DNA from: a virus
IMG/VR virus record: IMGVR_UViG_3300025120_000095
Location: 1-48,977 of that record
Direction: 5' to 3' (one strand)
Length of the DNA stretch: 48,977 nucleotides
Shown here: piece after piece, positions 241 to 33,082 of the stretch
Layout: the number at the start of each line of letters is the position of its first letter
How positions within the stretch are numbered: the first letter of the stretch is position 1
Position numbers and translations under genes: made by a program
Notes under the pieces: model-generated
Database searches by the model: none
What the model saw: the letters and a program-made list of their open reading frames with translations, nothing else
Told to the model about the DNA's origin: nothing

Positions 241-244
241 TTAC

Positions 245-260
245 AGGTTACCAGTGACTC
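245..260 (+). repeat. Diverged copy of a 16-base palindrome
   Basis: AGGTTACCAGTGACTC differs at two positions from the minus-strand reading at 24140-24154 (extended by one base) and resembles the copies at 12528-12543 and 37035-37050. Both changes keep pairing as G-U wobbles, which would suit an RNA hairpin better than a symmetric protein site. It lies between the terminator and the first + strand gene. Confidence 0.35.
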
Positions 261-285
261 ATCAATTACAGAAAGGAAGGTCGTC

Positions 286-1563: not shown

Positions 1564-1570
1564 ACAGCCA

Positions 1571-2234: not shown

Positions 2235-2271
2235 TTGCTACGACACACTCAGTGTGCTAGAAGGAGTCGTT

Positions 2272-2578: not shown

Positions 2579-2597
2579 CTCACAACCTCGACGGCTA

Positions 2598-5620: not shown

Positions 5621-6505
5621 ATGGTCACTAACAAATACGGATTACCGCATCAGTTCGAGAACCTTTTAGCCCGTGACAAGTATGATTCCGGGGACAGTCG
5701 CATAACTATAACACGCTTGCTTTCGTCGCCAAGAATTTCGTTGCTACAAAAGCAGCACGAAGACGAAATTGTTACAGATATCTCTGATGATGTATGGAAA
5801 CTTTTGGGCAAGTGCATACACACCGTGCTTGAAGAAGGTGCCGACGAGAGTGACATTATTGAAAAGCGGATGTTCGCTCAGGTCAATGGCTGGAAAGTGT
5901 CGGGGCAATGTGACGCCATCAGAACAGAGGGCGATCAAAAGTTCCTGATGGACTGGAAGTTTACCAGTGCCTACGCGATAGGAAAGAACCAGTTGAGTTG
6001 GGAGCAGCAATTAAATTGCTACGCATATCTCGCTCACCATGATCTAGGCATCAACATTGATAGGCTACAGGTGATTACGATTCTTCGTGACTGGCAAAAA
6101 AGCAAAGCAATGAACAGCAACAGCTACCCTCAAGCTCAGGTTCATGTGGTCGAGATACCCAAGTGGTCGTTTTCGGAGCAGTACGATTTTATCCTGCGAC
6201 GGGTTAGTGTTCATCAGGATGCATGGTTTGAATACGACATTGACGGGTCTCTGCCACTGTGCAGCGACGAAGACAGATGGAAAAGGGATTCGGTCTGGGC
6301 TGTTCAAAAGGTTGGCGGTGTCAGGTCTGTGAAGAACTTTGAATCGCCAGAAGAAGCAGCATCGTTTCATCAAAAGATGAAAGCAAAAGAGGAGTATCAA
6401 GTAGTCGAACGAAAGGGAGAGCCAGCGCGGTGCGTTGGTAATTACTGTCAGGTCGCCCAGTTTTGCGACCAGTATCAACAGGAGGTCAGCAATGACAATA
6501 AATAG
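5621..6505 (+). CDS. PD-(D/E)XK exonuclease, RecB/Cas4-like
   Basis: A 294-residue nuclease of the PD-(D/E)XK superfamily. The motifs are in order: GKCIH (H67), GQCDAI (D98), MDWKFTS (D111 and K113) and the QQLNCYAYL helix (Q130, Y134). This is the arrangement of RecB-family and Cas4-like phage exonucleases. Three cysteines near the end (C271, C276, C282) recall the C-terminal cluster cysteines of Cas4/AddB, but a clear fourth ligand is not obvious, so an iron-sulphur cluster is only possible. With the ERF protein two genes on, it likely resects DNA ends for strand annealing. There is no Shine-Dalgarno sequence before the ATG; translation probably uses the short A/C-rich leader. Confidence 0.85.
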   Translation: MVTNKYGLPHQFENLLARDKYDSGDSRITITRLLSSPRISLLQKQHEDEIVTDISDDVWKLLGKCIHTVLEEGADESDIIEKRMFAQVNGWKVSGQCDAIRTEGDQKFLMDWKFTSAYAIGKNQLSWEQQLNCYAYLAHHDLGINIDRLQVITILRDWQKSKAMNSNSYPQAQVHVVEIPKWSFSEQYDFILRRVSVHQDAWFEYDIDGSLPLCSDEDRWKRDSVWAVQKVGGVRSVKNFESPEEAASFHQKMKAKEEYQVVERKGEPARCVGNYCQVAQFCDQYQQEVSNDNK

Positions 6506-12525: not shown

Positions 12526-13239
12526 TTAAGTTACTGGTAACTTACCGTCATAAAATTTTTGCGACCAACGCCTGTGTCTTAGCAACGGCCTCCATATTAA
12601 TGGAAAAGCCCAGCTTATTTTCATGACCGTCGAGTTAATCAGGTTATACGGAAACCTCATAGGTCTCATATAATCTATAAACAGTATCACCCGTAATTCG
12701 TCAGTTTCATTAACGGCGTAGTGATTGTATGTGTCATCAAACAGAACGACCTTGCCATTCTGCCAGTGATACTTGTCGCCCTCTACGTTGATGTGGCACT
12801 TTTCCGGGTCGGGTATAATCAAACCCATGTGTATACGCAGCACCCCAGCCCACGGCCCTTCGTGTGGGTTGAGCGCCTTCTCTGGACCTAAGACAGAAAG
12901 GTATGCAGAAACAACCCGCTTGTCTTTGTTGAGTATGTTCATGAGGGCGGGGAAATTAGAGGCGTTCTTCTTAAAAGTTATGCCAGCCCCTTTGAGAAAG
13001 AACATGCGCCACTTGTCGTCGCTGCTTATGTAGGTTTGATCCGGGGATATATCTTGGAATGGCGCGAAGTCATCGTACCGCTCCATAATTTTTTTGGTCT
13101 CGTCCAGTATAAGGAAGTAGTTCTCCTCCAACTCACTAGACAGTGGGGTTGAGGAGGGGGCGAAAAACTTCTTGTCCCCCCACAGACAGGCTTTGCGAAA
13201 GGGCTTCTTCACAATCTGTGCAAGCCTGTACGCACTCAT
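12526..13239 (-). CDS. Aspartyl/asparaginyl beta-hydroxylase-like oxygenase
   Basis: A 237-residue protein of the AspH type. H126 in NPHEGPW matches the HxG iron motif, R135 and H137 occur in VLRIHMGL, the second iron His is H173 in FDDTYNHYAVN, and R183 is a likely 2-oxoglutarate contact in DELRVILFIDYMRP. AspH enzymes use two His and no acidic ligand, as here. They hydroxylate Asp or Asn side chains or sugar-linked substrates; the phage target is unknown. The start overlaps the stop of the giant virion gene by four bases (ATGA). It is the second 2-oxoglutarate oxygenase of this window and unrelated in motif layout to the first. Confidence 0.85.
   Translation of the reverse strand: MSAYRLAQIVKKPFRKACLWGDKKFFAPSSTPLSSELEENYFLILDETKKIMERYDDFAPFQDISPDQTYISSDDKWRMFFLKGAGITFKKNASNFPALMNILNKDKRVVSAYLSVLGPEKALNPHEGPWAGVLRIHMGLIIPDPEKCHINVEGDKYHWQNGKVVLFDDTYNHYAVNETDELRVILFIDYMRPMRFPYNLINSTVMKISWAFPLIWRPLLRHRRWSQKFYDGKLPVT
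12528..12543. repeat. 16-base palindrome, copy at lysozyme gene
   Basis: AAGTTAC-TG-GTAACTT is a perfect seven-base inverted repeat. It spans the last codons (KLPVT) and stop of the hydroxylase gene and lies 18 bases upstream of the lysozyme start. A 16-base copy with an inverted centre is at 37035-37050 and a 15-base copy is at 24140-24154. It may be an operator, a processing hairpin or a mobile small palindrome. Confidence 0.6.
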
Positions 13240-16200
13240 TGCACTGCTATCTGTCTGAGTATCGGCACCGCTGCTGTGATAGCTAATTCCTGCTGCCTAA
13301 TGATGTTAAGCAACTCCCTCTTTACTTCCGGGTCAATCGGTGACCTGAGGATTTCGTTCTTCTGTTCTCGCACCTCTTTAAGCTGCTGACGAATTTTCTT
13401 TACCTCATTCTCCAAGGCAAGGACCGTTCCCCTTTTAGTCGCAATCTCTGTAATCTTTTCGACATCGCCTTCGCGTTCAGCCGCCTTAAAAGTATTAACG
13501 GCTGTTTTAACAAGCTGGTCTAGCTCATAGAACTGAATGACAGTGCCGCGACTGTTGGGGTCTTGGAAGAAGCTCCTCACCATAGGAAGGCTGTACCAAT
13601 TCTTATCGGGCGGGAGCGGCTTATCGGGAGATTGGAACGCATCTATCATATGACTTGCGGCTGACAAACCATAACTTCCCAGTGTCCCAGTATACCCTTT
13701 GATAAGGTGATCAATTTTGAGCGGCGAGATATTTAATTGTTTGGCGAGATTAAGCGCAAGACTGCTGGTCCCTTGGAACTTCTGATAGTCAGGGTCCAAG
13801 TTCTTCATATAAGCAGGAACAATCTCTCTCCCCGAAAAGATTGAGTAATTAGTCCTTACTTCCAGAGCAGGGGTAATAATCTGAGGGGGGTTAACTGCTA
13901 GTGTTGAGGTTATGCCTCGTATGAGAGAATCTAGGACATCTTTCCCTGTGTCAGAGTCAAACGACCATTGCATAATTCTCTCAGGCATTGTCTTAAATAA
14001 GAAACCAACCTCAAACGGAACTGGTATTTTTACACAAGCCCCGCCAAAAGGTGTGGGCACAAACCAGTTTAAGTCTCTGGCTTCAGCAGTCGCGTTCTTG
14101 TAACAATCTGCATCTCTCATAAGCATGCTATACAAAGCTGTTGTGCCTACAATAAGAGAAGCCTTCGCAAGAGCCGCCTTTCGAGAAGCGTTTGGGTTCG
14201 CCGTTTCTTTGCTAAAACCAGCCCTATACAAGACATCTAGCCCCTGCAATCGTGCATTCAAAAAGGGAGTAACAGCAGTAATAAGGCGGATTGTTGCGCT
14301 TGATCCGCGTCTGCTAAAGTTAAGAACTTCAAGCGCCTCAAAAACAGCTTGGGCTTCATTGCCAGTTTTTTCCAAAACCCTTTTATAAACCGCAATTCTT
14401 GTTGATGCTTCTGAGGCATTGGTTGCAACGGTAGTCGCATCCCATAATTTTTTAAAAGGACTAGCCGCTGTTTCTAAAACGCCAGATGGCTTTTGAGTTT
14501 TTGTTTTACCCTTAATGTATTTGGCCATGTCTTTAGGGTTTCCGGCAAAATCAAACCCTCCAAAAACCCCAGCCATCCTTAAAGCCTCGGAAGACTCGCT
14601 GCCTCGTATAACGTCCATAACGCCTTTTGCGCTATCAATAACTGGTATGTAATTTTGCCCCGATGTAACCCACGCGCTTAACGTATCACGCATCATATTC
14701 CGCAACATAAATCCGGGGTCTCTTGTAACAAGTTCCCTCAACACCCTTGCTGGACTTGCTGCAAAACCAACAAACACATTATCCATAATACTGTCGGTGT
14801 TCTGCCCCAGAATTGTCATGCTCGTGTAGAGAAATTCATCAACAATTTCAAAGTAACGATCAACACCGTCCACTCGTATCTGAACAGTTTGCCTTGGTTT
14901 GTTTCCTGACTCATCAGGAGTAACCTCAGAAGCTACTCCCAAGGTCAGGGAGTCTCTGATAACTCTTTGAGCGGCTATATTCTTCATGCCGCCCTGTATT
15001 GCTGTAGCTGTGTTCCTTGCGACGTTATCTAGAAAATCATCTACCCTGCGAGGGGCGGCATAAAGATCAACCGAAACATCTGGATTAGATTGTCTTAGGG
15101 CACGAACAGACGCGACGGCTTTGTTGTAACTGTCGTACTGTTCCGGCTGAACCTGCCCGTCTATATCTATTTGGAACACCCTACCAGCGCCAACAAGACG
15201 CTTATCAACTCGCTTACCGTCTAGTGGAATGCGAGACCGTCCGCTTCCCTCCGCTCCTTCTAGGGGGGCCAAGCCCTGACCATAGGTTCCAAGCGTAGGA
15301 TCGCCGGGATAGAAGTATGTCAGGTCTTGAGTTCCGTCAGCGCCCTCTAAAGACTGTCTGTAGTAGGGGGTATAATCAGCAGTATTAATCCACGTCTGAC
15401 CCATCTCGGCTGTGATTAGCCCAGTATCAACCATGTACTTAACTAGGTAGCTGTTCCAGACCTGATATTCATCAAAGACTTCTGCAAAGTAATCATACTT
15501 GTCACCAAGCGACAAACCATTAAGGACATCCTGATCAGTCATGCCAGAATTGATTTTCTGTTTGTTAAGTCTTTGCGCCCTTCTTGCCTGAGCATAGGTG
15601 CCAAACTGAGAAACAACGCGGTTCTCTAGGACAGGGCTTAGTATAAAAGCAAGGCCGCGAATTGATTGACCTTCGACATCACTCGTTACATAGGTAAACC
15701 CTAGCTCCTTATCGTAAACAGGAACTCCGTCATAGAAAGCAGCCTTTGTTACCCCTGCATGTTGTTCAGCCATGAGAACAGCAGAGAATGCGCTGGCATC
15801 CGCTAAAACTTCTCCCGCAATCTTTGCTGCTTTTCTGGAAAGAACAGATATAGCTTCATACTTGTTAAGTATATTTTTTCTAAATTGACTTTTAATCAAG
15901 TCCCAGTTGTTGCTAAACAATACGCTGTCTGTGTAATCACCAAAGATTGCACTAAGCCAAGCCTGACCAGCGGTCTCCTCTGTATTAACAGCTTGCGTTT
16001 TGTTGATTGTTTCCTGAACTTCAGGGCTTTCGTCCTTGACCGTGCCGCCCCTAGAAAACTTTTCCTTTGCAGCCTTGTTAAGCTTCAGGACAGGGCGACC
16101 AGTTGGCTTTTTAGTTTTAAAAGTAAGCGCAGTTTCCTGAGCCGTAGTAGACAAGGCAGAGAACTTTGGCCCTAAGTGATTTGCTTTCCTGTAATTTTCT

Positions 16201-19200
16201 ACGTCCTCACGGAGGTTGTCCTTTATCATAACCTCGCTGTTAGGATAGGCCGTAGTTATACCAAGGAACTCTTGCCCCGACTTAGCATCGGTCACTGTAT
16301 CGAAAACAACTTTGACCTGCGTCTTTGAACCCACGGGTTTCCACAACATTTCAAGAGACCCTGCGCGGCGGTTCTCTACAAACTTAAATCTTGACTTGTC
16401 AACACCAGATACCCGTGCCTCAGTGTAAGCATCTAAAGCGGCAGCAATAGCAGCATCTGAACTCGTAAACGGTAAATCTTCTATGCCTCTGAAATGATCA
16501 TCGTGTAGCCCAGCGTGGGCCTGACCGTAACCACCAGTCTCGTAATTCTGACCAGCAGACATACGCACATTTAAAAATTTAGTGTTAAATGGAAGCTTAC
16601 CCCAAACATCACTGCGTGTTCCGTCTGCCCTTGCTCTTTTTACAAACCTGTTTGGCGCAGCGTTACGGGGGTCTTGTGGGTACTTACGAGAAAACCTTTC
16701 ATCGGGAACAAAGTTTTCTTGCGTATTGAAGCCAGTTTCATCTTGAAGCTCTTGAAGATTGACAGGCTCTACAAGGGTTTCAATACCTTCGTTAATAACA
16801 AACTCTGGCAGTATCCCAACTTTCTGGTCTGCATAAACTGTATCAACAGCAGAAGCGTTTTCATTTTGCTTGGCTGCTGGTCCAAAGTTGACCCAAGAGT
16901 TTTGGCCACGGGTCTCGCTCGCTAATGCTGCGCGAGCGAGCGGACTGAACATAACCGCATGGCTGGCATATGCAGCATCTTCTCCAGCAGCCCTGAACCC
17001 AAAGCCTTCCTTAACGTGCCCGAAGTAATCATGAACCGCCCGGAAGATGTCATTCACCCTAGCTCGACGACCTGATATGAACTCGTCAGTAAGGCGCAGC
17101 ATAGGGTTATCAGCTACTTCTTCCGCAGTAATCCCGTCTGTGCCAAACCCTGCATCGGTGGGGAAGACATACATATGGTTGTTTTGTTTTACATCTTCGA
17201 TCATCTCACGCGGCGAGGCGGCGTAAGGGTCAACGTCAGATGGATAGAACTCTACCTCAAGACCAGTGTCTTTGATGAAGTCATATTGCGTCATGACCTC
17301 TTCCGCCAAAGCCTCGTAAGCCGCTTGCGTAAAGGAATCCTCTGGAGTGTTCGGCATGTCTTCGTATGCTTGCGCTATACGAGTTGCCCGTTCTCCGTCC
17401 ACTGGTCCGTAAACGTAATTACCAACAAGCTCAGGCACACTGCGCCCAACGGTTTGACCGTATTCACGGGCAGCTTGTCTTGCTGGTGCAAACGGCTCAG
17501 TGGGAACTGGGCCTGTTCCGGGTATGTTGTAGGAAGCTGGTAGCCCCTCTACCCTTACCTCTTCTTGCGCGGTAGCACCCGACCTATCCTGTGCCTGTAA
17601 CTGTCTCTCGCTTCGAGATAGTCCTGCTCTGTCGGGTATGCGGCTCTCGACGGCGCTGTCGGTACTCCGGCGACTAAACTTTTCTCTGTTTCCATACTTG
17701 AGTCTTGCGCTTGTGATGGAGTCTTCGAGTAGCGGCTCAAGTTGGCCCCGCTTAAAATTCTTGACCCGTTCTGCAACAGCGGGTCCGTATCTTTGATGAA
17801 TCCTTTGTAAGTAGCCACCACCTTCTTTGTCCTCCGTCCAGTTATTTTCTATATAATCGCCTTCGTAATAAGCTGCCTCAACATCTAAATCAAAACCCAT
17901 TTCCTCAGAAATTTTAGATATGGCGCTTATCACATCTCCATCAGGCTCCAACCTAGCCAACAAACCGGCTTTCTTTGTATCAAAGAGAATAAGCATTGAA
18001 GAATTGCCATTCTCGTCAATAGTCCCAGTGTAACCTGTGATAATGTTATCCTCATCAGGCAACCGGGCATCTTCTTTTCCAGCTTTGCGTTCTTTGGCTA
18101 ACTGTTTTTCAGCTTTCTTAGTTCCTGCTAATTCAGCATTGCGTATTTTGTCCCACAGTATGGCCATGTTTGTGTCGTTATTCAACAAATCTTTTGACAC
18201 ATCACTGGGGCGAATTTTTAAAGCAAGCTTAGATTTGCCTGTTTTGGTAGGCACAATCCGATAGGGAAACATTCCTGTTTGCTCTACCGCATAACCGATA
18301 ATACTAGCCATATCCATCATTGCTTCTGGAGAAGCAACAACTTGCTCTACCATGTTTGGATTAAGACTATCGTCAAGCCAACCGCCCGTAGAAACATAGC
18401 GATTTATTTCAGCAACGCCTGTCACTTCTCTGGCAAAATCAGCGGCAGCTTCAGCAGCTATACCCGTGACTTCCTTTTGTCCGATAGCAGGTAGCTGATA
18501 ATAATCTACAAAGGTCTCGGAGTAAGGGGAGCCTTCTCCAAAAGCTACCTCAAATGGCAGGTTCCTGATATTAAACAGAATTGATTCTTCGGCTGTTTGT
18601 CCCGGCTTACCAAGGAATTTAGTCGTCGCCATCCAGCCAACAGACTGCACCTGATATGGCGTCCAGCCGCCGCCCTTGTAGTTTATGTCATTGAGGTGAT
18701 CACTAAGCGCCCTCATAAAGTCGCCTGAACGCTCGTACTGGTTTTCCCCCGGAGAGCCTGACGTGTCAGTCTCAACACGCACACCGTAGTTTTCCTGCAA
18801 AAACTTCTGATAGGTTGCGTCAACAAATCCAGTGTCTCTGAGAGAATGAACGTCTGCAACGGCAGGTGCCCCACCGCGTACATCGTCACCCATCCATGAC
18901 CGCGTTTCTCGCAGAAGCCCACTGTCTATAAAATCATAGAGCTTCTGTGCGCCCCCTGAAGGCAGTTCCCCACCTGCCTCCATCGCCATCCAGAAATCAA
19001 ATAACCTATCTGCCGCTAAACCAGCTTCTACTTCTTGTGAAACAGGAGCTTGCGCCGCTTGCGTAAGAGCTTGCTCTCTTGAACGAACAGCATTCATAGC
19101 CGCTGTCGAAGGACTAGCCTGTTGGTTAGCCATAAGCCATGCGGCTAAAAAGTTAGGCCAGTCTTTGCCAAAATACTTTTGATACGATTTGGCTGCTTCT

Positions 19201-22200
19201 GGATACCATTCCCGTGCCGCCGCTATCCCGGCATCATCAAGACGGGTTTCTGTCTGATTGATCCAGTCGTCAAATGTAATCTTGCCAACAACAGCGACTA
19301 CTTCCCCATCATCGTTTACGATTTCTTGGCGTGGGTTTCGTGGTCCTGTAGACTCGGTAGCACCCGCAACATCTGTCCTCTTTGCCTTCCTGCCTAGACG
19401 TGCTTGTATTTCGTCTTCGGGAGGGGTGGGAAACGGGTTATCTCCAACTGGAGCAGGTGTCTTACGGGCACGTTTTCTAGAGAACTTTTCGGCTGTTGGA
19501 AAGTCGGGAACACGACCCTCTCTTTCAACCGTAGCTGTCTCTGCTGCGTTAAGATTAACTGGAGTAGCGGTTGTCTCTGTAGCCCTGCCGCCAGACCGTC
19601 TCCCTCGAAGGGGTGCCGCACCAGCATCAAGACGCTGGAATATCTCGTTACCAGTTATGATGTCCGCGTCTGCCGCCGCTTCTTTAACAAGCCTAAAGAA
19701 CTCAGCAATCTTACGGAAAATGTTTCGCGTCTTAGGCGGGAACACGCGACGACCTGCGGCGTAATCTCGGAACGCTTCCGCTACAGCTTCCTCTACAAGT
19801 ATCTCTTCACTAGGAGGATTATCTCTGAGGGCTTCGGCCCTGTCCTCGTAATATGTTTTGTCAGTACCGGGACGCTTGGCCTTCTTCACAAAAGACTCTA
19901 ATGCTGCCTTCTCCTGATCAGTAACAACACCAGCCTCGTAAGCTGCGTGAATAAACTCGTGATCAAGCACTTCGGCAAGAGCAGATATGTTTTCTTGATC
20001 TGACTTTGACGGATCAACAACAGGATCAAGCGCCAATCGTATAGTCTTAATAAGCTGACCAGCTTCTTCCTCGGCTCTAAACACACCTTCAGCGTCAGCT
20101 TGGATTTCCCCGCTCTCTATACTTTCAATTAAGTTGTTGAACTTAAGCCTGACACCCTCTAGCGCAGGATTGGCTTTTACCCTTGCTTGGAACCTATCGT
20201 TAATTGCCCTAGCTAAAGGCTTAAGCCTCTGCAACAGTTCTTGTTTTTTTACACTGGGTGGAGCCGTTCTTTCGGGACTGCCCCTCAGAACCAAACGACG
20301 CTTGATTGTTCCGTTCTTATCTAGTATTCCGCGACGAATAAGCTCTCGCCTGATTTCACCAGCCACTTCTTTCCGTCGAGCGCCTTTTATATTAGGTGCG
20401 CCAACTGCTTCTAGAATTAACTTATCTGAAACTTTAGCTGCCTTAGGGGGAGGCTTTGAGGTGTCTTTCCAAACCTCCGCTGTCCCCGTTTCCCTAATCG
20501 CTTTTGCTACGTCAGCAATCTGCTGTGCCGTGAAATGAGGATACTTAATAACAGGGATAGAGGTTTCTTCTTTGAACTCCGGCATCGCGTCCAGCCGCTC
20601 AAACAAAGCATTCCGCTGCACCTGCGACATATTTTGTGGCATTGATTTGCCTGTCGTCCGCAACGCAAACGTCTTAAACGACTCATCGCCAAAGCGAATG
20701 TTCTTAGTTGACGCTAGGTCTTCTATGTCTCTGACCGTAACATTAAGAGATGCGTCTTCTGTAAGTGGCCTTTTCTTAGCAATGATGGCGCTTAAGGCTT
20801 TGTTGGAGGCTCCTGTTTCAGCCACCTCTTCAATAGTATAAAGGCCATCGTTCTGCACGATCTCTCCCGGTCTGAGAGAAACCGCCATAGTCCGCTTACG
20901 ATCTATTTGAGAAGCAACTTCTTTACCAACTTCCTCACGGCTAAAAAATCCCAGAGGAGTTACTGTTTCCCTAGCAGCATCTAGAGTAGCAGCGGTTTCT
21001 TCAATCTTATTATCTTCGAGCGCACGACTTGCCGCCGCTTGTGTGAACTCAACTTCAGCAGCTTCAATAGCTGTCGGCACTCTTTCTGTTAAAAGATTGG
21101 CAGCTTCTTGAGCAAGGTCAAGAGTTTGGAAAGACGGTGTCCGCACCTCACCCGCAGCATTAACAACTGCAAATCCACCGTTAGGCATTTCGCGTACAGT
21201 GAATGGGCCAAGAGGCGCACCCGACCCGATATCTTCTCCCAAACCTGTGGGGGCAACATTGTTGACTGACTCGTCAATGATAGTTTCTACAACCTGAGAG
21301 GGGCTATCAGTCGTAAACTCTGCTTCGTTGTAGCTTAGAAGAAGAGGACCATCTGGATCGGGAGTAATGACTTCACGAGCGCGAGCCTCTCGCTCCGCTT
21401 CCTGCTTGTCTAAAAGCTTTTGTACCTGATCTACTTCGTCTTGAGTTCTGGTTTTCTTAAATCTTTCAGATGCGGTTCTAACCCCACCGCCCATCAATGC
21501 GCCAGCAGCACCGGCATTGATCATCATCTTTCTTAGTTCAGCGCCATCCAGTTCCTGTCCGGTAGCCTCGACCGCTGTTACCTCTGCTATTGCTTCCTGC
21601 ATAGCCTCGGTAATTCCCTCAACAGCCATACCCTTACCAGCAGCTTTGAGATACTCCCGCTTGATAGGCTTGAGTAGCGTTCTTTTTGCTACCTCTTCAG
21701 CAGATTCTGTTCCTAATCGCTTAACAAGCTGCCCTCCAATCTTTCCGGGCAGGATTGAATCAAGCGCCGCTATTGCAGTACCTCCAGCAAATGCTGCTTC
21801 AGGATTTACAACGGATGAGTCTTTCGACTTAATTGACTCTTGAACTTCGCCTACACCAAGGGTAAGCGAAGGAATAAATGCGCCCAGCAAACTACCAATC
21901 GTTCCGCCTATTGCGGCTCCCGGTATTGCACCAACGCCGCCAAAAAACGCACCTACTGCTGCCCCTGCTTTTGTCCCAAGCTTTGCTCCTACCAGACCAC
22001 CAGCAATCGAAGGAGCAAACATTACAGTTTGTTCGGGGATGGTGTCCGTAAGCCACTCGCCAACGTCACCTAAGTTATCAATGTCGGTAAATTGTATGGC
22101 AGGAATTTCGCGCTCTTGTTCTCTTTTAACAAAAGCTTCGCGACCTTCTCGGCCAAAGCCTGTAAGGTCTTCGGACCCTGTTAGCTCACCCGTAGCCTCA

Positions 22201-22421
22201 ACAGCACTGGCACTAAGCCCACGAAGCTTGCTAACGCCAGACTCAAAAGACTCGCCCACACGATCAAAAAAACCTGCTTTGTCTCGTGCGGCATAGGGGT
22301 AGACGTATTCTGGTTTAGGTAAACCACCAATATACTCTTGAACTGCTTGATCTATAACGGAATCTGGAGTCCCATCTGGAAACTCAAGTATTGTCCCGTC
22401 TGCTTGAACAGCCTGTATCAT
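13236..22421 (-). CDS. Giant polyvalent virion/ejection protein (3061 residues)
   Basis: A 9.2-kb gene. The N-terminus (ILEFPDGTPDSVIDQAVQEY) resembles the start of ejected proteins in other phages. Residues 135-195 are a Gly/Ala-rich hydrophobic zipper suited to membrane insertion. HEFIH at 821-825 is an HExxH-like zincin motif with Phe in place of a hydrophobic residue. Near 1720-1860 is a conserved block with HDYFGH (about 1796), and near 1930-2060 another with GYGQAHAGLHDDHF. From about 2290 to 2950 the sequence resembles large polyvalent protein-associated domains (ADYTPYYR, SRRGSSATIRL, SPLKIDHLIKGYTGTLGSYG). A coiled coil ends the protein. Such proteins are packed in the head and injected with the DNA. 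Modules are assigned by eye. Confidence 0.8.
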   Translation of the reverse strand: MIQAVQADGTILEFPDGTPDSVIDQAVQEYIGGLPKPEYVYPYAARDKAGFFDRVGESFESGVSKLRGLSASAVEATGELTGSEDLTGFGREGREAFVKREQEREIPAIQFTDIDNLGDVGEWLTDTIPEQTVMFAPSIAGGLVGAKLGTKAGAAVGAFFGGVGAIPGAAIGGTIGSLLGAFIPSLTLGVGEVQESIKSKDSSVVNPEAAFAGGTAIAALDSILPGKIGGQLVKRLGTESAEEVAKRTLLKPIKREYLKAAGKGMAVEGITEAMQEAIAEVTAVEATGQELDGAELRKMMINAGAAGALMGGGVRTASERFKKTRTQDEVDQVQKLLDKQEAEREARAREVITPDPDGPLLLSYNEAEFTTDSPSQVVETIIDESVNNVAPTGLGEDIGSGAPLGPFTVREMPNGGFAVVNAAGEVRTPSFQTLDLAQEAANLLTERVPTAIEAAEVEFTQAAASRALEDNKIEETAATLDAARETVTPLGFFSREEVGKEVASQIDRKRTMAVSLRPGEIVQNDGLYTIEEVAETGASNKALSAIIAKKRPLTEDASLNVTVRDIEDLASTKNIRFGDESFKTFALRTTGKSMPQNMSQVQRNALFERLDAMPEFKEETSIPVIKYPHFTAQQIADVAKAIRETGTAEVWKDTSKPPPKAAKVSDKLILEAVGAPNIKGARRKEVAGEIRRELIRRGILDKNGTIKRRLVLRGSPERTAPPSVKKQELLQRLKPLARAINDRFQARVKANPALEGVRLKFNNLIESIESGEIQADAEGVFRAEEEAGQLIKTIRLALDPVVDPSKSDQENISALAEVLDHEFIHAAYEAGVVTDQEKAALESFVKKAKRPGTDKTYYEDRAEALRDNPPSEEILVEEAVAEAFRDYAAGRRVFPPKTRNIFRKIAEFFRLVKEAAADADIITGNEIFQRLDAGAAPLRGRRSGGRATETTATPVNLNAAETATVEREGRVPDFPTAEKFSRKRARKTPAPVGDNPFPTPPEDEIQARLGRKAKRTDVAGATESTGPRNPRQEIVNDDGEVVAVVGKITFDDWINQTETRLDDAGIAAAREWYPEAAKSYQKYFGKDWPNFLAAWLMANQQASPSTAAMNAVRSREQALTQAAQAPVSQEVEAGLAADRLFDFWMAMEAGGELPSGGAQKLYDFIDSGLLRETRSWMGDDVRGGAPAVADVHSLRDTGFVDATYQKFLQENYGVRVETDTSGSPGENQYERSGDFMRALSDHLNDINYKGGGWTPYQVQSVGWMATTKFLGKPGQTAEESILFNIRNLPFEVAFGEGSPYSETFVDYYQLPAIGQKEVTGIAAEAAADFAREVTGVAEINRYVSTGGWLDDSLNPNMVEQVVASPEAMMDMASIIGYAVEQTGMFPYRIVPTKTGKSKLALKIRPSDVSKDLLNNDTNMAILWDKIRNAELAGTKKAEKQLAKERKAGKEDARLPDEDNIITGYTGTIDENGNSSMLILFDTKKAGLLARLEPDGDVISAISKISEEMGFDLDVEAAYYEGDYIENNWTEDKEGGGYLQRIHQRYGPAVAERVKNFKRGQLEPLLEDSITSARLKYGNREKFSRRSTDSAVESRIPDRAGLSRSERQLQAQDRSGATAQEEVRVEGLPASYNIPGTGPVPTEPFAPARQAAREYGQTVGRSVPELVGNYVYGPVDGERATRIAQAYEDMPNTPEDSFTQAAYEALAEEVMTQYDFIKDTGLEVEFYPSDVDPYAASPREMIEDVKQNNHMYVFPTDAGFGTDGITAEEVADNPMLRLTDEFISGRRARVNDIFRAVHDYFGHVKEGFGFRAAGEDAAYASHAVMFSPLARAALASETRGQNSWVNFGPAAKQNENASAVDTVYADQKVGILPEFVINEGIETLVEPVNLQELQDETGFNTQENFVPDERFSRKYPQDPRNAAPNRFVKRARADGTRSDVWGKLPFNTKFLNVRMSAGQNYETGGYGQAHAGLHDDHFRGIEDLPFTSSDAAIAAALDAYTEARVSGVDKSRFKFVENRRAGSLEMLWKPVGSKTQVKVVFDTVTDAKSGQEFLGITTAYPNSEVMIKDNLREDVENYRKANHLGPKFSALSTTAQETALTFKTKKPTGRPVLKLNKAAKEKFSRGGTVKDESPEVQETINKTQAVNTEETAGQAWLSAIFGDYTDSVLFSNNWDLIKSQFRKNILNKYEAISVLSRKAAKIAGEVLADASAFSAVLMAEQHAGVTKAAFYDGVPVYDKELGFTYVTSDVEGQSIRGLAFILSPVLENRVVSQFGTYAQARRAQRLNKQKINSGMTDQDVLNGLSLGDKYDYFAEVFDEYQVWNSYLVKYMVDTGLITAEMGQTWINTADYTPYYRQSLEGADGTQDLTYFYPGDPTLGTYGQGLAPLEGAEGSGRSRIPLDGKRVDKRLVGAGRVFQIDIDGQVQPEQYDSYNKAVASVRALRQSNPDVSVDLYAAPRRVDDFLDNVARNTATAIQGGMKNIAAQRVIRDSLTLGVASEVTPDESGNKPRQTVQIRVDGVDRYFEIVDEFLYTSMTILGQNTDSIMDNVFVGFAASPARVLRELVTRDPGFMLRNMMRDTLSAWVTSGQNYIPVIDSAKGVMDVIRGSESSEALRMAGVFGGFDFAGNPKDMAKYIKGKTKTQKPSGVLETAASPFKKLWDATTVATNASEASTRIAVYKRVLEKTGNEAQAVFEALEVLNFSRRGSSATIRLITAVTPFLNARLQGLDVLYRAGFSKETANPNASRKAALAKASLIVGTTALYSMLMRDADCYKNATAEARDLNWFVPTPFGGACVKIPVPFEVGFLFKTMPERIMQWSFDSDTGKDVLDSLIRGITSTLAVNPPQIITPALEVRTNYSIFSGREIVPAYMKNLDPDYQKFQGTSSLALNLAKQLNISPLKIDHLIKGYTGTLGSYGLSAASHMIDAFQSPDKPLPPDKNWYSLPMVRSFFQDPNSRGTVIQFYELDQLVKTAVNTFKAAEREGDVEKITEIATKRGTVLALENEVKKIRQQLKEVREQKNEILRSPIDPEVKRELLNIIRQQELAITAAVPILRQIAVQ

Positions 22422-24481
22422 TGGCTTATACGCTTGCCTTTATTATCGTATTGAATTGTTTTGCCGCTACCTTGGCCAGCACCAGCCGGTGCGGCCCCAC
22501 TTGGAATGTCCAGACCCAACAAGCGGTTAATTTCTCTTTGCATGACACCCTGCTGTTGCCTCAAGTTATCAAACTCTTTTCTGGCCGCTTCTTCTGTAAG
22601 ACCCTTTCTCTTTGCCTGTGAAATATAAAGATCGACCCCATAACCTAGTGTCTTTTTAATACTATCAATTTGGGCATTGTAGCTCTTAACTAGCTGTTGC
22701 TTTCTTGTGGCCGTTAAAAGATCATCACCCTTCATTGACTTAACTAAACCAGCTATGTCTTTTCCTCTGGTTTTTAATTCTCCAATGCGATCTTGCACCG
22801 CTGCTTTCTCAGCATCAGTCAAAGGTTGACCACCCCTGCTTTTCCCACTACGAAGCAAGTCTTCAAGCTCAACAATGTTAGCTTGAGTTTCTCCAAGCTG
22901 GTTTGCAAGAGAGTTTTTTTCTCTTTCATCCTTTGCTGCTGAAAGCCGAAATCTTGCGTTCTCACGGTCCTGAGTGGTTCTTGCAGTAGCAAACTGCTGT
23001 TCGGCTTTAATTACATTGATCTCAAGGTTGCGCGTCTTTTCAAATCTATTGAAAGCTTTTTCATCAACATCTCTACGCACCTTATCAAGATCACGAAGCT
23101 CTCCACGCAACTTTGAAACCTCGTCTTTTCTGCCAGCGGCTTCTGCTACTTCTAGCTGCGTAAGCTTTGCTTCTGCGTCAAACAAAGCATTCTCTTGCTT
23201 TCTAACTTCGCTTAAGCTTTTACCGTAGCTTGCAATCGCAGGGGCTGCTTCGCCAATAGCTTGAGTAATAAACGGGCTTTTAGAACCAGCAATTCTAGCG
23301 GCAGCTTCGAGAAGCGCAAGTCCAGCAGCCTCATCGCGCTGGCCACCAATAGCATCTCTCCTATCAGTCAAAGCCGTAGATAAATCTTTATACGCAGAGT
23401 CAGCCGTTAATGCCGCCTGTGCACCTGTTAACGCTTTTTTTGCTGCCGCTTCGGCGCTAGTAAGGGACGAGCTATAGGTAACCGCTGGCGGCTGTTTTGC
23501 TGCTGCTGCCTTTAACCTGTCTTCATACGGATCAAAATTAGTATTAAACCCAGCAACTGGACCGGCCGAACGCTCAGGCAGCAATGCAGATACATCTACT
23601 GGCGGTGCTGCCCGTGCTGCTGGAATGTTGAGGTCAAATTTACTAGGGTCAAATTTTATTGGTCTAAATGGGTCAGCCTGAAATGGGGTAGGACGAGGTT
23701 CGTAACCACCGGGAACAAGCTTTGATGTTGCCGGTACTGTCGTTGATGTTGCCGGTACTGGCTTTGCATCAGCCTGTGCTTTAAGAATTGCTTCCCTATA
23801 GGCACTGGGATCACGCAAATAATCTTTTAAAGAATCTACAGCCTGTGTCCTGCCTCTTCTCCTAGCAAGATAATCTTTATCTATGGGCATGGTCGGGAAA
23901 AGTCTATCCATTGCCCTCGCTGCTGAAAAACTAGGTGACTGCATTGTAGCGGCTGGGTTAAAATTTGCACGAGGTGAACCCGGATAATCCAATGCGTAAA
24001 AAGTTTCAGCAAATTTTTCCGGATTGAACGCCCCATTATTAAAATAAGGCGTTCTATTAAACAGGGTTGGCCCATCAAGTCCATCTAAAGAAATGCCATT
24101 TTGAGCTTTGATCTTTGCAAGACCACCATCAGCCATACGAGTTACTGGTAACTTATTGGCCATTGGTTGGGGAGACGGGGGCATGGTTGCCATTGACTGC
24201 TCAATAGGTAGGTTCTGTGGCTGGGTAGACATCCTGTTCTGAGGCTGCGCCATAGCACCTAGACCACGCGCCATGTTAGCCGCAGGAGCAAGTATGTCCT
24301 CTGCAACCGTCGTAGAGCCTTGGGCTTGGTTCTTCTGGTACTCTTCCTTCATTTCCTTGCGACGACCCATTTCGGTCATCACTAGAAACTGAGGAACAGT
24401 GCCTTGAGAGTAAGCAGTCCTAAGCTGATTATCGCTTAGGTCTTTTAACTTATCTTGGATTTGAACAAGGTTTCCTACCAT
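22418..24481 (-). CDS. Internal virion/ejection protein, coiled-coil
   Basis: A 687-residue protein. A short N-terminal helical motif (DLSDNQLRTAYSQGTVPQF) is followed by a disordered Pro/Met/Gln-rich region and Ala-rich repeats. A long coiled coil runs from about 430 to 650 (Lys/Glu/Arg/Leu-rich) to a Gly-rich end. Length, composition and place between another ejection-type protein and the giant protein suggest a component of the ejectosome. It overlaps the giant gene by four bases (ATGA). A copy of the palindrome is embedded at residues 110-114 (KLPVT), followed by RMADGGLAK. Confidence 0.7.
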   Translation of the reverse strand: MVGNLVQIQDKLKDLSDNQLRTAYSQGTVPQFLVMTEMGRRKEMKEEYQKNQAQGSTTVAEDILAPAANMARGLGAMAQPQNRMSTQPQNLPIEQSMATMPPSPQPMANKLPVTRMADGGLAKIKAQNGISLDGLDGPTLFNRTPYFNNGAFNPEKFAETFYALDYPGSPRANFNPAATMQSPSFSAARAMDRLFPTMPIDKDYLARRRGRTQAVDSLKDYLRDPSAYREAILKAQADAKPVPATSTTVPATSKLVPGGYEPRPTPFQADPFRPIKFDPSKFDLNIPAARAAPPVDVSALLPERSAGPVAGFNTNFDPYEDRLKAAAAKQPPAVTYSSSLTSAEAAAKKALTGAQAALTADSAYKDLSTALTDRRDAIGGQRDEAAGLALLEAAARIAGSKSPFITQAIGEAAPAIASYGKSLSEVRKQENALFDAEAKLTQLEVAEAAGRKDEVSKLRGELRDLDKVRRDVDEKAFNRFEKTRNLEINVIKAEQQFATARTTQDRENARFRLSAAKDEREKNSLANQLGETQANIVELEDLLRSGKSRGGQPLTDAEKAAVQDRIGELKTRGKDIAGLVKSMKGDDLLTATRKQQLVKSYNAQIDSIKKTLGYGVDLYISQAKRKGLTEEAARKEFDNLRQQQGVMQREINRLLGLDIPSGAAPAGAGQGSGKTIQYDNKGKRISQ
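24140..24154. repeat. 15-base palindrome inside the ejection protein gene
   Basis: AGTTACTGGTAACTT matches 15 of 16 bases of the copy at 12528-12543 and encodes KLPVT in the same frame as there. Unlike the other copies it lies inside a gene, about 330 bases after its start. Confidence 0.55.
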
Positions 24482-24493: not shown

Positions 24494-25555
24494 TTACCCC
24501 AACAGCTTAGACAGGCCAGCAGCGCCCAAGCCAAGACTTAAAAGAGGTGCATACGGACTGGGCGGCGGCTCCATACGGCGCACTTCTGATTCTGGCGTAA
24601 TAGGAACACCGCGAAGGATCGAAGACAGATACTGTAGCTGACCTCTTTCATAGTCTCGCTGATTAATAAAATCTTGAAAACTAAGATCAAGTTCTGCCTG
24701 TCGCCTTAATCTTTCTGACTCACCTACACCCGCTAAAGCAGCAGCCTGTTCTAGTCGAGTCTTCTGTAACGCAGGAGCAGCGCCCAATATCGCTTCGGCC
24801 CCCGCAAGACCAAGACGATCAGCGGTTTCTGCTGCTGACAATCTTCGTTCCTGCTGTATTCCCGCATCAGATAAAGCTTGCGCCCTTGTTTTAAGAGCAA
24901 GCTCTTGTTGACCAGTCGCCGCTTGCATAGCTTGGCCAAAAGCATCGGCTCTTGCCGTAGCGCCCATTTGATCAAGCCTTTCGTCAAGATCACGTTGCGC
25001 CATTTGCCTAGGGACAAACCTTCTGCTACCGCCGAAAGCATCCGCTTGAATCGCCTCTGCATCTCTTCTTGCCTGACCTTCGTCAAACCTTCGCTGTGCG
25101 GAAACCTCTTGCTGTGCCAGCACGTTTTCTAAATAAGGATTTATAAAGCTTTGTACTTGAGTGCGAGGGTCTCTTGCAGCTAAAACAGCTTCAGTAGGCG
25201 CTGCATACTGAGCAAACGAAGTTGACGGATCAAACTGTCCTACAAGATCAGTGCCTGTAAATTGAGTTGGACGAGCAACCTGTTCAGCAAATTCAGCACC
25301 TGCTGTATCAAAGCTAGTCTGCAAAGCAGTGTCTGTCGCTATATCACGGGTTAGCTGTTCAGAAGCAACCCCTGACGTTGTTGGCTCTGCTATCCTAGCC
25401 TCAGTATAAGCATCATATGGAAGATTAGTCTGAACCTCCGTCCTATCTAACAGCCGCGTAAAATACGGCTCTACATAGTCAGGCAGATTACTTGTTGTTT
25501 GCGTTACCTGTGATGTTTGCGGTGCCCCGCCACCGGGTGGTGCGCCTTTTCCCAT
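24494..25555 (-). CDS. Virion-associated protein, Ala/Gln/Arg-rich
   Basis: A 353-residue protein starting at 25555, seven bases after GGAGG; a longer frame exists but lacks this site. It has a Gly/Pro-rich start, then a helical region with FINPYLENVLAQQ and ADAFGGSRR, a pattern seen in ejection-region proteins of marine phages. Long Ala/Arg/Glu helices follow, and a short hydrophobic C-terminus (LLSLGLGAAGLSKLLG). Composition and place suggest an internal virion protein injected with the genome. Confidence 0.7.
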   Translation of the reverse strand: MGKGAPPGGGAPQTSQVTQTTSNLPDYVEPYFTRLLDRTEVQTNLPYDAYTEARIAEPTTSGVASEQLTRDIATDTALQTSFDTAGAEFAEQVARPTQFTGTDLVGQFDPSTSFAQYAAPTEAVLAARDPRTQVQSFINPYLENVLAQQEVSAQRRFDEGQARRDAEAIQADAFGGSRRFVPRQMAQRDLDERLDQMGATARADAFGQAMQAATGQQELALKTRAQALSDAGIQQERRLSAAETADRLGLAGAEAILGAAPALQKTRLEQAAALAGVGESERLRRQAELDLSFQDFINQRDYERGQLQYLSSILRGVPITPESEVRRMEPPPSPYAPLLSLGLGAAGLSKLLG

Positions 25556-25557
25556 AA

Positions 25558-25974
25558 CTAAACCTCCATCCGATAAGAACAATACTCAGAAGTCCAGCCA
25601 ATCTTTTTCAGCTTTCTTTCCCAACCCTTACGGCCAATAAATTCAACAAAATTACAATCGTTATCTTCAGCCCAGCTTTTGATAAAATTGTTTACTTCTC
25701 CAAACCACTCATCGTACCCAGAGCCGCCTATAAACAAAGTCTGTAAAGCCTTAGAACCGGGGTACTCTACAAACTTAGATGTCCAAGCAGCCTTTGTTTC
25801 TTTCTTGTCTTCGTCATAAACTAAAAATAAATGCTGCCGACCTGCTTTTACTTCTTCACGCACAGACTCAATATCCCAGCGTCCTCCTGAAAATAAAATA
25901 GCTTTTAACAAAAGATCGGCCACATGCGGCCACTCTTTGTCAACGTATTCAGGCGGGACAAGAGATACGATCAT
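25558..25974 (-). CDS. GNAT-like acetyltransferase-fold protein
   Basis: A 138-residue protein resembling the GNAT-fold proteins found among phage internal virion genes, such as those near T7 gene 13. Visible signs are the central strand pair HLFLVYDE and ALQTLFIGG, the following helix (WFGEVNNFIKSWAE) and the end NFVEFIGRKGWERKLKKIGWT. The acetyl-CoA loop (Q/RxxGxG/A) is not clear; GGSGYD is the nearest match, so catalysis is uncertain. It overlaps the upstream gene by four bases and lies among ejection proteins. Confidence 0.65.
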   Translation of the reverse strand: MIVSLVPPEYVDKEWPHVADLLLKAILFSGGRWDIESVREEVKAGRQHLFLVYDEDKKETKAAWTSKFVEYPGSKALQTLFIGGSGYDEWFGEVNNFIKSWAEDNDCNFVEFIGRKGWERKLKKIGWTSEYCSYRMEV

Positions 25975-30217: not shown

Positions 30218-33082
30218 CTATCTTGCTGTCGCTGGTGCAACGCCGTCACCGCCGAATGGGTGTTCTGCGAATGCCATGTATGTGACTGTGTATCCGTTGC
30301 CGTTTGCAGCTGCCCACGTATTTCTTACTTTAAATCCATTTGAAACAAAGTCCCAAAAATCAGCGCCACTGTTTTCAGCGTCGGATGCATTGGGCTGTAA
30401 GACATGGTTTACTGCGTTAAAAGTATCTCGCTTTACATCCAACATTATCCAACCGGTCGGGGCGTTCGTACTTACTTTAAAAATTATAAAAGCAGGTTTA
30501 AAGCCGGTCGCCACAAAAGGCCCGGCTGCATTTCCATTTCCCGTGAAACTCCCAAAAGAACTAAAGCCTTCCACTGGTGCGAAGACATAAGCAATGTATG
30601 TTTTTGTATCTGTGTTCCCTTGAGCATTAACACCTAGTGTAAATACCGACGAAGTTGGTTCTGTGTCATTAAAGTATTCATCACTATCAAAAGCAGCCCC
30701 AGTAGATTGTAAAAATAACGACTTTGTAGCACCAACCGCAGAGTGATAAACACCCCAGTTTGCATCGTCCCTATCCCGTGCTTTCACAATAAACATTCCC
30801 GGCTTTACGCCAAGATTGTGAGCGATAGTTCTGTTCGAACCGTTGCCGGTGTAAGCGATGATATCCAAGCCCGGAGTTGCCCCCTCGTTCCACTGCCACG
30901 CTGCATAGCTTTCAGCGTTGGTGTTTACGATTACGTCATCGCCAAGTGCAAAGCCATCGGACTCAAAAGCGGTTAAGGTGTCATCATTAGTTGCTTCAGC
31001 GGCAGTAGAATTAGAAGACAAAACTTTTGTAGCACCACGGACAGTATCAAATAAAGCATGGGCATCCGTCGCATCTCTGTTTTTAATCCAAACTAAATTA
31101 GGCGAAAATGTGCTGTTTCCGCTTTGGTCTATTGACTGAGTTGAGCCATCTCCTTCGTACAAAGTTGTCTGGAAATACTTTGATCCATCTGCGATTGTTG
31201 GTGTGGGAAGGTTGCCGGTATTAAGAGCCTCGAATCCCGTGGGTGGTGTGTAAGCAAAAGCACTCTGACCAAAATTTATAGAACCCGTCTTACTATTGTA
31301 TATGGAAACATAGGGTAAAAAAGTTAGCGTGGTGCTAGTCGTAAAGTCTGGGCTACTTCCATCAGCCGGATCGCCGCCGTTGATCCAAGAGTTCTGTATT
31401 CCAAAATGTAATTTTCCAGTACCACTATCATATGCAATCTGAAGAACATTCCCTCCGGCGTACGTCCCACGACTCGTTCCAGTCCAGTTGTTGTTTACAA
31501 CGGAATCATATCTTGTTGAATAAGCGTAAGCCAAGGCATCTTGATACCAATCAGAAACTTGCGTATTTACACTGTCGGCTACAATACCAAAATTAGGATC
31601 GCCAACGCCGCCGCTTGATGTTGCAATACATTCCCAGTACCACTTGCCGGTTGACGGTATAGCCATAGTAGCTCTTGCAGTACGCCAAGCAGAACCGTTG
31701 CTGTCAGTGAACTCTAGGTTTCCGTTGCTCAGAGTGGGGCCAACAGCGTCAAGAGGATTCATAGTACACCAGTTATTGGTGGGCGAGTCGGACATCTGAT
31801 CGTTTGCGGCTAGGCCACTGCTAAAAAAGTTATTTCCTAGTGTTGAATTGTCTACCCAAACAACTTGACCAAGATCGGCTGCGGCATCCCCTTGAGCTAT
31901 CGCAATACGAACAGTGTTTGTGCTTGTTTGAGAGAAAGTGTGAACATCAGAGCCATTACGAATAAGTTTAATTGTCCCGCTGCTACGGGTCATTTTCCAA
32001 GTGTCGCCATCAGCAATTGTCGTAGCGTTTACCTGAACAGCCCCGCCATAAAAAATATCTCTGTTAGCGGCTACAGATGATGTCTGTATGTACCAACTAT
32101 CAGTCATACTATTCATACCGGCAGTAGATGTGCTGTCGTTAAAAGTTCCGTCTTCGCCGGTTTCGTACACACCAATGACAAAGTTAGCCATATTGATGTA
32201 CCGCCACGAAAATTCAAAGTCTCCGGTAAACGTGTCAGAAGTTCTTATCGCCTTGTTGTCTGTGTCCGCTTCAAGACGACCATTACTGTAAGTGTAGCTG
32301 CCTGTCGCACCAGTATATTGAGATGCGGCATAGCTAACGACCTGATCTCCAGAGATTCTAACGTCTTCTCCGAGGGCGGTGGAGTCCGCACCTGTGATGT
32401 GAAATCCGTTAGTTCCAAACGTCAGGCCACTAACATTCTTCGGTATCCACACGCCATTGCTGTCGTACTCACCAAAACTGCTCGCATCGGTAGTCGCGGT
32501 CCCGTCGAGGAAAACCATCTCTGCGAGATACCCGTCAAACAGGTATTTGTTGTCAGGTCCGGCTGAAATGTTCAGCGATCCAATGCGGTGATGTGAATAG
32601 CTGCTGCTGTTCCAACGGCTGCTCATGCTGCTGGAAACTGTACCCGTTGCTGAAAAACTTGTAACTCTACTGCCGTTGATATAGAGGCGCATCCGATCAC
32701 CAGCGGTGCCGTTAGTGCTATCCCAAACTACAACTGCGTGATACCAAGCGGCAACATCGCCGACCCTTTGTGACGTTGTCCAATTCTGACCACCAATAGC
32801 AATAGCCCATTTGCCGGGGGTAGATCCGTCTGAAATAGATAAGGGGTAATCACTGGTGCTTGACCCGTCAGACGCCGACCAAATAGGAAACCATTGACTA
32901 TTTTCGTTGGCGTTTGGTCTGCCTCGTTTGAGCCAACAGGAAAGCGTCCACGTTGTCAGCGAGCCGCTAGATGAAAGGCTGCGCTTAAGCAGTGCGTCAT
33001 CGCCCGACTCAAAGCGGATAGACTGATCTATATCGTAGTCCGCTCCAGCGTTAGCCAGCCATTGTGAGCCAAACATTGTCAT
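30218..33082 (-). CDS. Receptor-binding tail protein with LamG and SPRY-like domains
   Basis: A 954-residue all-beta protein. Residues about 15-240 have a LamG/concanavalin-like sandwich (SIRFESGDDALL, WTLSCWLKRG, RMRLYINGSRVTSF, LFDGYLAEMVFLDG). Around 245-400 is a further strand-rich sheet. Around 470-600 a SPRY-like domain appears (TGKWYWECIATSSGG, FGIVADS). From 625 to the end is a domain with PNLVWIKNRDATDAHALFDTVRG and a second related half with KPAFIIFKVS...GWIMLDVKRDT. These are typical carbohydrate- or protein-binding modules of phage adhesins, so this likely recognises the host surface. It starts within one base of the fibre gene's stop. Confidence 0.72.
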   Translation of the reverse strand: MTMFGSQWLANAGADYDIDQSIRFESGDDALLKRSLSSSGSLTTWTLSCWLKRGRPNANENSQWFPIWSASDGSSTSDYPLSISDGSTPGKWAIAIGGQNWTTSQRVGDVAAWYHAVVVWDSTNGTAGDRMRLYINGSRVTSFSATGTVSSSMSSRWNSSSYSHHRIGSLNISAGPDNKYLFDGYLAEMVFLDGTATTDASSFGEYDSNGVWIPKNVSGLTFGTNGFHITGADSTALGEDVRISGDQVVSYAASQYTGATGSYTYSNGRLEADTDNKAIRTSDTFTGDFEFSWRYINMANFVIGVYETGEDGTFNDSTSTAGMNSMTDSWYIQTSSVAANRDIFYGGAVQVNATTIADGDTWKMTRSSGTIKLIRNGSDVHTFSQTSTNTVRIAIAQGDAAADLGQVVWVDNSTLGNNFFSSGLAANDQMSDSPTNNWCTMNPLDAVGPTLSNGNLEFTDSNGSAWRTARATMAIPSTGKWYWECIATSSGGVGDPNFGIVADSVNTQVSDWYQDALAYAYSTRYDSVVNNNWTGTSRGTYAGGNVLQIAYDSGTGKLHFGIQNSWINGGDPADGSSPDFTTSTTLTFLPYVSIYNSKTGSINFGQSAFAYTPPTGFEALNTGNLPTPTIADGSKYFQTTLYEGDGSTQSIDQSGNSTFSPNLVWIKNRDATDAHALFDTVRGATKVLSSNSTAAEATNDDTLTAFESDGFALGDDVIVNTNAESYAAWQWNEGATPGLDIIAYTGNGSNRTIAHNLGVKPGMFIVKARDRDDANWGVYHSAVGATKSLFLQSTGAAFDSDEYFNDTEPTSSVFTLGVNAQGNTDTKTYIAYVFAPVEGFSSFGSFTGNGNAAGPFVATGFKPAFIIFKVSTNAPTGWIMLDVKRDTFNAVNHVLQPNASDAENSGADFWDFVSNGFKVRNTWAAANGNGYTVTYMAFAEHPFGGDGVAPATAR

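Follow-up and report, generated by a model that had tools for sequence, protein, structure and literature searches.

Polyvalent proteins are a class of phage proteins described by Iyer et al. 2017 (PMC5512222): giant, multidomain, late products in a virion gene context, mosaic in their domains, among which are zincin-like metallopeptidases and LPD38. They are thought to be injected weapons, and many of their domains are unassigned. Here we analyse a 48,977-nucleotide stretch of viral DNA (IMG/VR virus record IMGVR_UViG_3300025120_000095; the whole stretch is called the window hereafter), in which one gene encodes a protein of 3061 residues that is, by its domain content, a polyvalent protein of this class. 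It has all of the features listed above in common with the described proteins, and possibly a BECR-like domain as well. It differs in a DUF7178-type domain (domain D) and an HDYFGH-type domain (domain E), neither named as such in the main text of that paper as searched, and in lineage-specific KFSR linkers, and the swapping of its domains is seen at cassette resolution. The kind of protein is already known; what is novel is the HDYFGH family.

Parts of the same arrangement are found in two other phage groups. The 'large polyvalent protein' of Planktothrix phage Pag-Yong1 (UMO75972.1, 2772 residues) combines an E domain (47%) and homology to the LPD38 region (28%) in one protein, and the portal of this phage is related to that of the window (41% identity); its middle is different, in that neither the zincin nor the DUF7178-type domain found a match there, and it has no KFSR linkers. 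In the Mycobacterium Bixzunavirus Cane17, gp95 carries a DUF7178-type D and gp96 an E domain, 33% identical; these are two separate, adjacent genes of the structural region, with no giant protein.

The architecture of the protein, its conservation, its family memberships and the exchange of its cassettes are established computationally. Its product is, we consider likely, an internal virion protein, the last and largest one of a marine podovirus resembling HTVC023P and CRP-901, enlarged to a polyvalent protein whose middle would be cargo.

Domain E defines a widespread family

A sequence-only reading of the window had pointed to a conserved HDYFGH block near residue 1796, to which no function could be given; the block lies where it was reported, within domain E (Table 1). 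No Pfam or NCBIfam model covers this domain, which is covered by PHROG 3170, of function unknown. The family is present in at least 590 confirmed IMG/VR stretches and at 59 loci of GTDB genomes, including solo proteins of 220–290 residues in Micromonospora, Chryseobacterium, Aquimarina and Ruegeria. Among 395 Bacteroidota genomes it was found only in the genome already known, indicating that the solo form is rare. In an alignment of 108 phage and bacterial sequences Q1712, R1794, H1797, H1802, G1813, H1821, E1836, T1837 and Q1840 are invariant, and E1708, Y1733, D1743, D1798, E1814 and K1867 nearly so. The AlphaFold2 model is confident (predicted local distance difference test score, pLDDT, 95; predicted template modelling score, pTM, 0.92), and within it the conserved His, Glu and Gln residues are spread over four helices, an arrangement suggestive of a metal centre.

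Comparison with the PDB gave no Foldseek match (best E 0.6) and no sequence match. An HD-domain phosphohydrolase was considered and rejected, as the confident model has no fold match in the PDB even though HD structures are abundant there. Literature searches for HDYFGH, DUF3293 and DUF7178 found nothing, and D- and E-type blocks are not named as such in the main text of Iyer et al. 2017 (PMC5512222) as searched, the supplementary files lying outside that search. In the libraries and literature covered, the E family is without a name, a solved structure or an assigned function.

Foldseek comparison of the model with BFVD linked it to small phage proteins, including a 188-residue protein of phage LKA1 that we equated, by phage name and length, with LKA1 ORF7. 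The LKA1 ORF7/phi15 ORF2 family (phrog_7806) belongs to the early region of T7-like Pseudomonas phages, and its alignment with E by hhalign reaches a probability of 83.9% and a score of 43.6, against 23.4 for the best of 40 shuffles. Common to both are FR..HD.GH, E, [DE]T..Q and DQ motifs, and the family appears to be a distant branch of an HDYFGH superfamily; its members differ in being short (160–190 residues) early cytoplasmic proteins with HDxGH instead of HDYFGH. Hypothetical early proteins of this family are present in 123 phage records (for instance L201:3662-4228 and L203:1329-1820).

Gene company of domain E

In 18 polyvalent proteins the partners of E are ART-PolyVal (nine), DUF7178 (five), LPD22 (four), LPD38 (three) and DUF3293 (one). 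A profile of domain D located it in the same open reading frame at 21 of 82 viral E loci and in an adjacent frame at a further 5, Bixzunavirus gp95/gp96 included; some of the 82 are close relatives of the window, so this is not a count of independent events. Terminase, portal, scaffold and tail-fibre genes lie near E in other phages.

In seven bacteria, a gene whose product has an AdoHcyase_NAD domain overlaps the solo E gene or lies next to it, at a distance of -1 to +6 bases in four of them and of 319–441 bases in three alphaproteobacteria. The neighbourhood of E in Micromonosporaceae includes a conserved N6 DNA methylase gene, for which vertical synteny is a possible reason. This gene company points to a nucleoside-type substrate for E; that the substrate belongs to the S-adenosylmethionine (SAM) cycle is doubtful.

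Some further features of these bacterial loci were recorded. Loci L115, L116, L117, L119, L123, L125 and L147 hold an S-adenosylhomocysteine-hydrolase-like gene with the solo E gene, and several also a DUF3293-like gene, which in Ruegeria (L125) stands between the E and AdoHcyase_NAD genes and at L119 is fused to E; start-stop overlaps occur within the gene set at some loci. At L132 and about 22 other Micromonosporaceae-type loci the solo E gene is near a conserved methylase of about 700 residues, and many of these loci have Ser/Thr kinase-like and UvrD-like helicase genes nearby, which could reflect either a defence-type island or simple synteny.

Domains E and F are exchanged as cassettes

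Relative L001 is 90–97% identical to the window protein in most segments and 67.6% identical in domain F (residues 1930–2105). Its F is 87.5% identical to that of relative L014, which is otherwise 66–74% similar. Divergence at four-fold sites is 0.59 in F and 0.04–0.19 in the adjoining domains, and the breakpoints of the exchange fall near residues 1900–1960 and 2100–2120, close to the RFSRK (1909) and KFSRG (2121) linkers. Domain E has a pattern of its own: compared with the window, L005, L007 and L016 diverge at four-fold sites by 0.11–0.27 in E and by 0.40–0.69 in other segments, and L011 and L014 are close in every compared segment but E. These independent patterns show that E and F each move as a unit and are exchanged as cassettes between related phages. 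Such exchange would be expected if host defences exert selection on these parts.

The domain F sequence conserves GYG..HA.LHD and TT..P, which at motif level resemble the His (N-terminal helix) and Ser/Thr (late strand) of BECR enzymes; that F is a BECR-type RNase is a guess at this level. Four copies of [KR]FSR stand between domains (Table 1), and four or more copies arose in none of 5000 shuffles. The motif is conserved within the lineage, with single-site changes to KLSR, SFSR and KYSR. We also considered FSR as a general processing signal of polyvalent proteins and discarded the idea: other polyvalent proteins with E or D show no enrichment of the motif, which is confined to this lineage.

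A probable HhH-GPD relationship of domain D

The central blocks had been left without a nameable function in the sequence-only reading, which no longer holds for two of them, domain E, a conserved putative metal-dependent enzyme family, and the core of domain D, which is DUF7178- and HhH-GPD-like. The D block as a whole spans residues 1021–1580, and its distant relatives in other phages lie within proteins of 600–1100 residues. The giant protein has no direct Pfam match to DUF7178 (PF23802), membership coming through an iterated profile: a hidden Markov model seeded by two DUF7178 domains of other E-bearing proteins reaches the D domains of close relatives at about 1e-65. W1072, Y1073 and D1190 are invariant across 39 aligned D sequences, in a pattern that resembles the helix-hairpin-helix and catalytic Asp of DNA glycosylases. 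Aligned by hhalign with four bacterial Nth proteins, D scores 29–33 and places Asp1190 on the catalytic Asp, whereas scores do not exceed 19.3 for 45 column-shuffled controls or 16.2 for unrelated alignments. The AlphaFold2 model of D is all-alpha and weak (pLDDT 66); among the Foldseek matches listed, mouse OGG1 has the top probability (0.30) and Helicobacter pylori MagIII is present, with E about 1. A profile search against PDB sequences returned chance matches only. On these alignments, D is probably related to the HhH-GPD superfamily.

A zincin-like domain precedes the central blocks

The HEFIH motif that had been noticed near residue 821 is at that place, and a check for a third zinc ligand downstream of it turned up the EEAVAE motif, whose E878 is likely the ligand by analogy with thermolysin-type sites. 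Neither motif varies in any relative that covers it. Of shuffled versions of the giant protein, 0.65% contain HExxH and 0.035% contain the fuller pattern in which an E..hhE motif comes after it. Domain C aligns by hhalign with the zincin of another polyvalent protein, L030 (HEAIH ... EEAVAE), at a probability of 80.7% and E 1.3e-5. Pfam gives no significant match for either of the two zincins, and the whole giant protein has no match among PDB sequences. Searches with tblastn of phage records with the zincin core or with residues 1–1640 found nothing, and an IMG/VR search for the zincin, with patterns that missed the active site, returned close relatives only. The sequence evidence supports a zincin-like metallopeptidase with a conserved third-ligand motif, predicted to be proteolytic. 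A role for such zincins in the processing of polyvalent proteins was proposed by Iyer et al. 2017 (PMC5512222).

Termini and position in the late operon

The earlier description of the protein as a multidomain polyvalent virion protein is borne out in its architecture, its late virion operon, its zincin-like motif and its C-terminal domain; its presence in virions is what these features would predict. Likewise, the N-terminus read as ejection-type does contain the reported Gly-rich segment and has a virion-structural match (phrog_6958, virion structural protein, residues 55–332, E 3.8e-29), from which a part in ejection, perhaps as the channel, may be supposed. A PF21724 match (residues 145–183) is to the Gly-rich stretch only. 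Block B, which follows, has no family match in whole-protein Pfam and PHROG scans. The C-terminal third matches two giant PHROGs of unknown function, and the polyvalent-associated domain expected near the end is LPD38 (PF18857), with 119.8 bits against a curated Pfam cut-off of 27. A single open reading frame, on the minus strand with exactly the ends first given for it, thus combines zincin, DUF7178-like, HDYFGH and LPD38 domains, of unlike predicted activities. Its segments are 62–99% identical to relatives on other IMG/VR contigs.

The gene ends a minus-strand late operon with terminase, portal, major head (capsid) protein and tail genes. The portal is 37–45% identical to those of Pelagibacter phage HTVC023P, Planktothrix phage Pag-Yong1 and Roseobacter phage CRP-901. 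Upstream genes for proteins of 138 and 362 residues are homologous to genes of HTVC023P and CRP-901, which places the giant gene in the slot of HTVC023P gp83 (868 residues) and CRP-901 gp31 (759 residues), the last large protein of the block. The equivalence is positional; from podovirus gene order, the slot would encode an ejection protein. The N-terminal half of gp83 is Gly-rich. Unlike the giant protein, gp83 and gp31 have no recognised cargo domains.

Proposed role and alternatives

From gene order, the N-terminal profile and LPD38 we infer packaging and injection; cleavage, zinc or other metal binding and all enzyme activities are likewise predictions. The N-terminal 340 or so residues and the C-terminal LPD38 region would serve assembly and ejection, and the giant protein would be packaged and ejected with the DNA. 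The zincin (H821, E822, H825, E878) may cleave the polypeptide, either within the head or once it has entered the cell, or attack host proteins. The cargo, released or tethered, would act in the first minutes of infection: D as a DNA-glycosylase-like domain on DNA bases, E as a metal-dependent enzyme on a nucleoside-type substrate, perhaps of the adenosyl/SAM cycle, and F as a variable domain, perhaps a BECR-type RNase. Related phages exchange the E and F cassettes, whose edges coincide with KFSR-type linkers or lie near them. Taken further, the HDYFGH domain would represent a superfamily of metal-dependent enzymes that is new and whose fold is absent from the PDB, acting at the start of infection as injected virion cargo or as a T7-like early protein, sharing a conserved bacterial operon with DUF3293 and an S-adenosylhomocysteine-hydrolase-like protein, and swapped by phages as a cassette of the giant protein; for this combined proposal we see the chances as even.

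Several observations weigh against a packaged protein with enzymatic cargo. BLAST found nothing significant between the giant protein and gp83 or gp31, N-terminus included, and the agreement is one of position and of the Gly-rich character of gp83. The hhalign probability of D with Nth is 16–22%, the Foldseek E-values of D are not significant alone, and the Lys of bifunctional glycosylases is absent from D, with Glu or Thr instead in the window clade; monofunctional HhH-GPD members likewise have no catalytic Lys. No PBECR family of Pfam or PHROG matches F at E up to 10, so that the BECR assignment rests on motif. In one lineage, that of L014 and L017, domain E is degenerate (HNYFGH, with the DTVYADQK block changed or lost) in an otherwise intact protein; E is thus not essential in every lineage, and this one is a candidate for natural loss of function. 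The degenerate E and the missing Lys would suit a purely structural ejection or channel protein, with non-catalytic blocks that are left over from enzymes or serve in binding, as would the positional equivalents in the cousins (759–868 residues), which show no recognised enzyme domain. We nevertheless think this quite unlikely, given that His, Glu, Asp and Gln positions are strictly conserved in 108 E sequences, that the zinc motif and Asp1190 are similarly conserved, and that E exists as solo bacterial and early phage proteins. Very unlikely, in our view, is a protein that is made late and not packaged, and works in the infected cytoplasm, for example in assembly or as a protease. A late operon position alone is no proof of packaging, but the virion profile at the N-terminus, the last-internal-protein slot and the head and packaging genes that adjoin E in other phages all speak for it, as does LPD38, reported solely from phage-type polyvalent proteins (PMC5512222).

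Within the cargo reading, two narrower ideas concern E and the linkers. If E removed SAM or a SAM-cycle nucleoside, it would be an anti-restriction enzyme functionally like the SAM lyase of phage T3. The S-adenosylhomocysteine-hydrolase-like gene that the solo form overlaps or adjoins in seven separate organisms, and the N6 DNA methylase beside many actinobacterial copies, are in keeping with this, and the relatives among early genes of T7-like phages have a parallel in T3 SAMase, which is expressed before any other viral protein (PMC8406200). We judge it unlikely all the same: the hydrolase-like gene is divergent, vertical synteny may account for the methylase, and the PDB comparisons gave no solved structure related to E by sequence or fold, with no likeness of either kind to SAM lyase (T3/Svi3-3). 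The number of KFSR motifs between domains and their conservation, with changes at single sites, would in turn fit motifs that are not mere linkers and are cut by the zincin or by a prohead protease. This conjecture we regard as tentative and rather improbable, since the motif is absent as a feature from other E- and D-containing polyvalent proteins and could also be explained by linker position, cassette exchange or duplication.

For the preferred reading of an injected polyvalent protein, E offers a defined candidate: a widely shared enzyme-like family that is confidently modelled, keeps its candidate active-site residues strictly and has a partner domain in DUF7178. Natural solo versions exist in the cultivable Pseudomonas putida phage phi15 and in mycobacteriophages. 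The trading of E and F as units would make the turnover of domains part of the arms race against the defences of the host.

Coordinates and neighbouring genes

Table 1 Features of the giant gene and the genes upstream of it (positions in the window)
Feature	Residues	Position	Strand	Basis or remark
Giant polyvalent protein gene, whole	1-3061	13236..22421	-	3061 residues, ATG to stop; LPD38 and relatives
N-terminal region, ejection-type	1-345	21387..22421	-	phrog_6958; Gly-rich hydrophobic stretch ~134-190
Block B	380-722	20256..21284	-	56-98% conserved in relatives
Domain C, zincin-like metallopeptidase	760-945	19587..20144	-	hhalign to second polyvalent zincin; conserved in relatives
HEFIH zinc motif	821-825	19947..19961	-	Invariant in relatives
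EEAVAE motif, candidate third zinc ligand E878	877-882	19776..19793	-	Invariant in relatives; aligned to L030 EEAVAE
Linker 1, KFSRK	979-983	19473..19487	-	Motif and relatives
Domain D core, DUF7178/HhH-GPD-like	1035-1300	18522..19319	-	Iterated profile, alignment, hhalign to Nth, Foldseek OGG1/MagIII
Asp1190, invariant, aligned with endonuclease III catalytic Asp	1190	18852..18854	-	Alignment and hhalign
D block, C-terminal half, no assignment	1301-1580	17682..18521	-	Alignment with distant relatives
Linker 2, KFSRR	1581-1585	17667..17681	-	Motif and relatives
Domain E, HDYFGH family, putative metal-dependent enzyme	1622-1906	16704..17558	-	108-sequence alignment, AlphaFold2, spread
HDYFGH motif	1797-1802	17016..17033	-	H1797 and H1802 invariant in 108 sequences
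Linker 3, RFSRK	1909-1913	16683..16697	-	Close to left edge of F cassette
Domain F, BECR-RNase-like by motif only	1915-2120	16062..16679	-	Core 1930-2105 is the swapped cassette
Linker 4, KFSRG	2121-2125	16047..16061	-	Close to right edge of F cassette
C-terminal region G	2130-3061	13239..16034	-	phrog_9854 and phrog_18222; matches in many phages
LPD38 domain	2774-2935	13617..14102	-	PF18857, E 1.9e-34
687-residue gene, upstream, overlaps giant gene		22418..24481	-	Position of internal virion protein
362-residue gene		24494..25582	-	Homologue of CRP-901 gp33 and HTVC023P gp81, phmmer 2.8e-8 and 7.3e-8
138-residue gene		25558..25974	-	Homologue of HTVC023P gp80, phmmer 8e-13; CRP-901 slot annotated GNAT

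Downstream, an aspartyl/asparaginyl beta-hydroxylase gene (12526-13239, minus strand; PF05118, E 4e-42) overlaps the stop of the giant gene and is possibly co-expressed with it; the HTVC023P genome has several 2-oxoglutarate-Fe(II) (2OG-Fe(II)) oxygenases. Elsewhere in the window, positions 30218-33082 (minus strand) encode a putative tail-fibre protein with DUF7483 (E 1.6e-95), and the gene at positions 5621-6505 (plus strand) is exonuclease-like (phrog_2139) and matches, less strongly, a CRISPR/Cas-associated profile.

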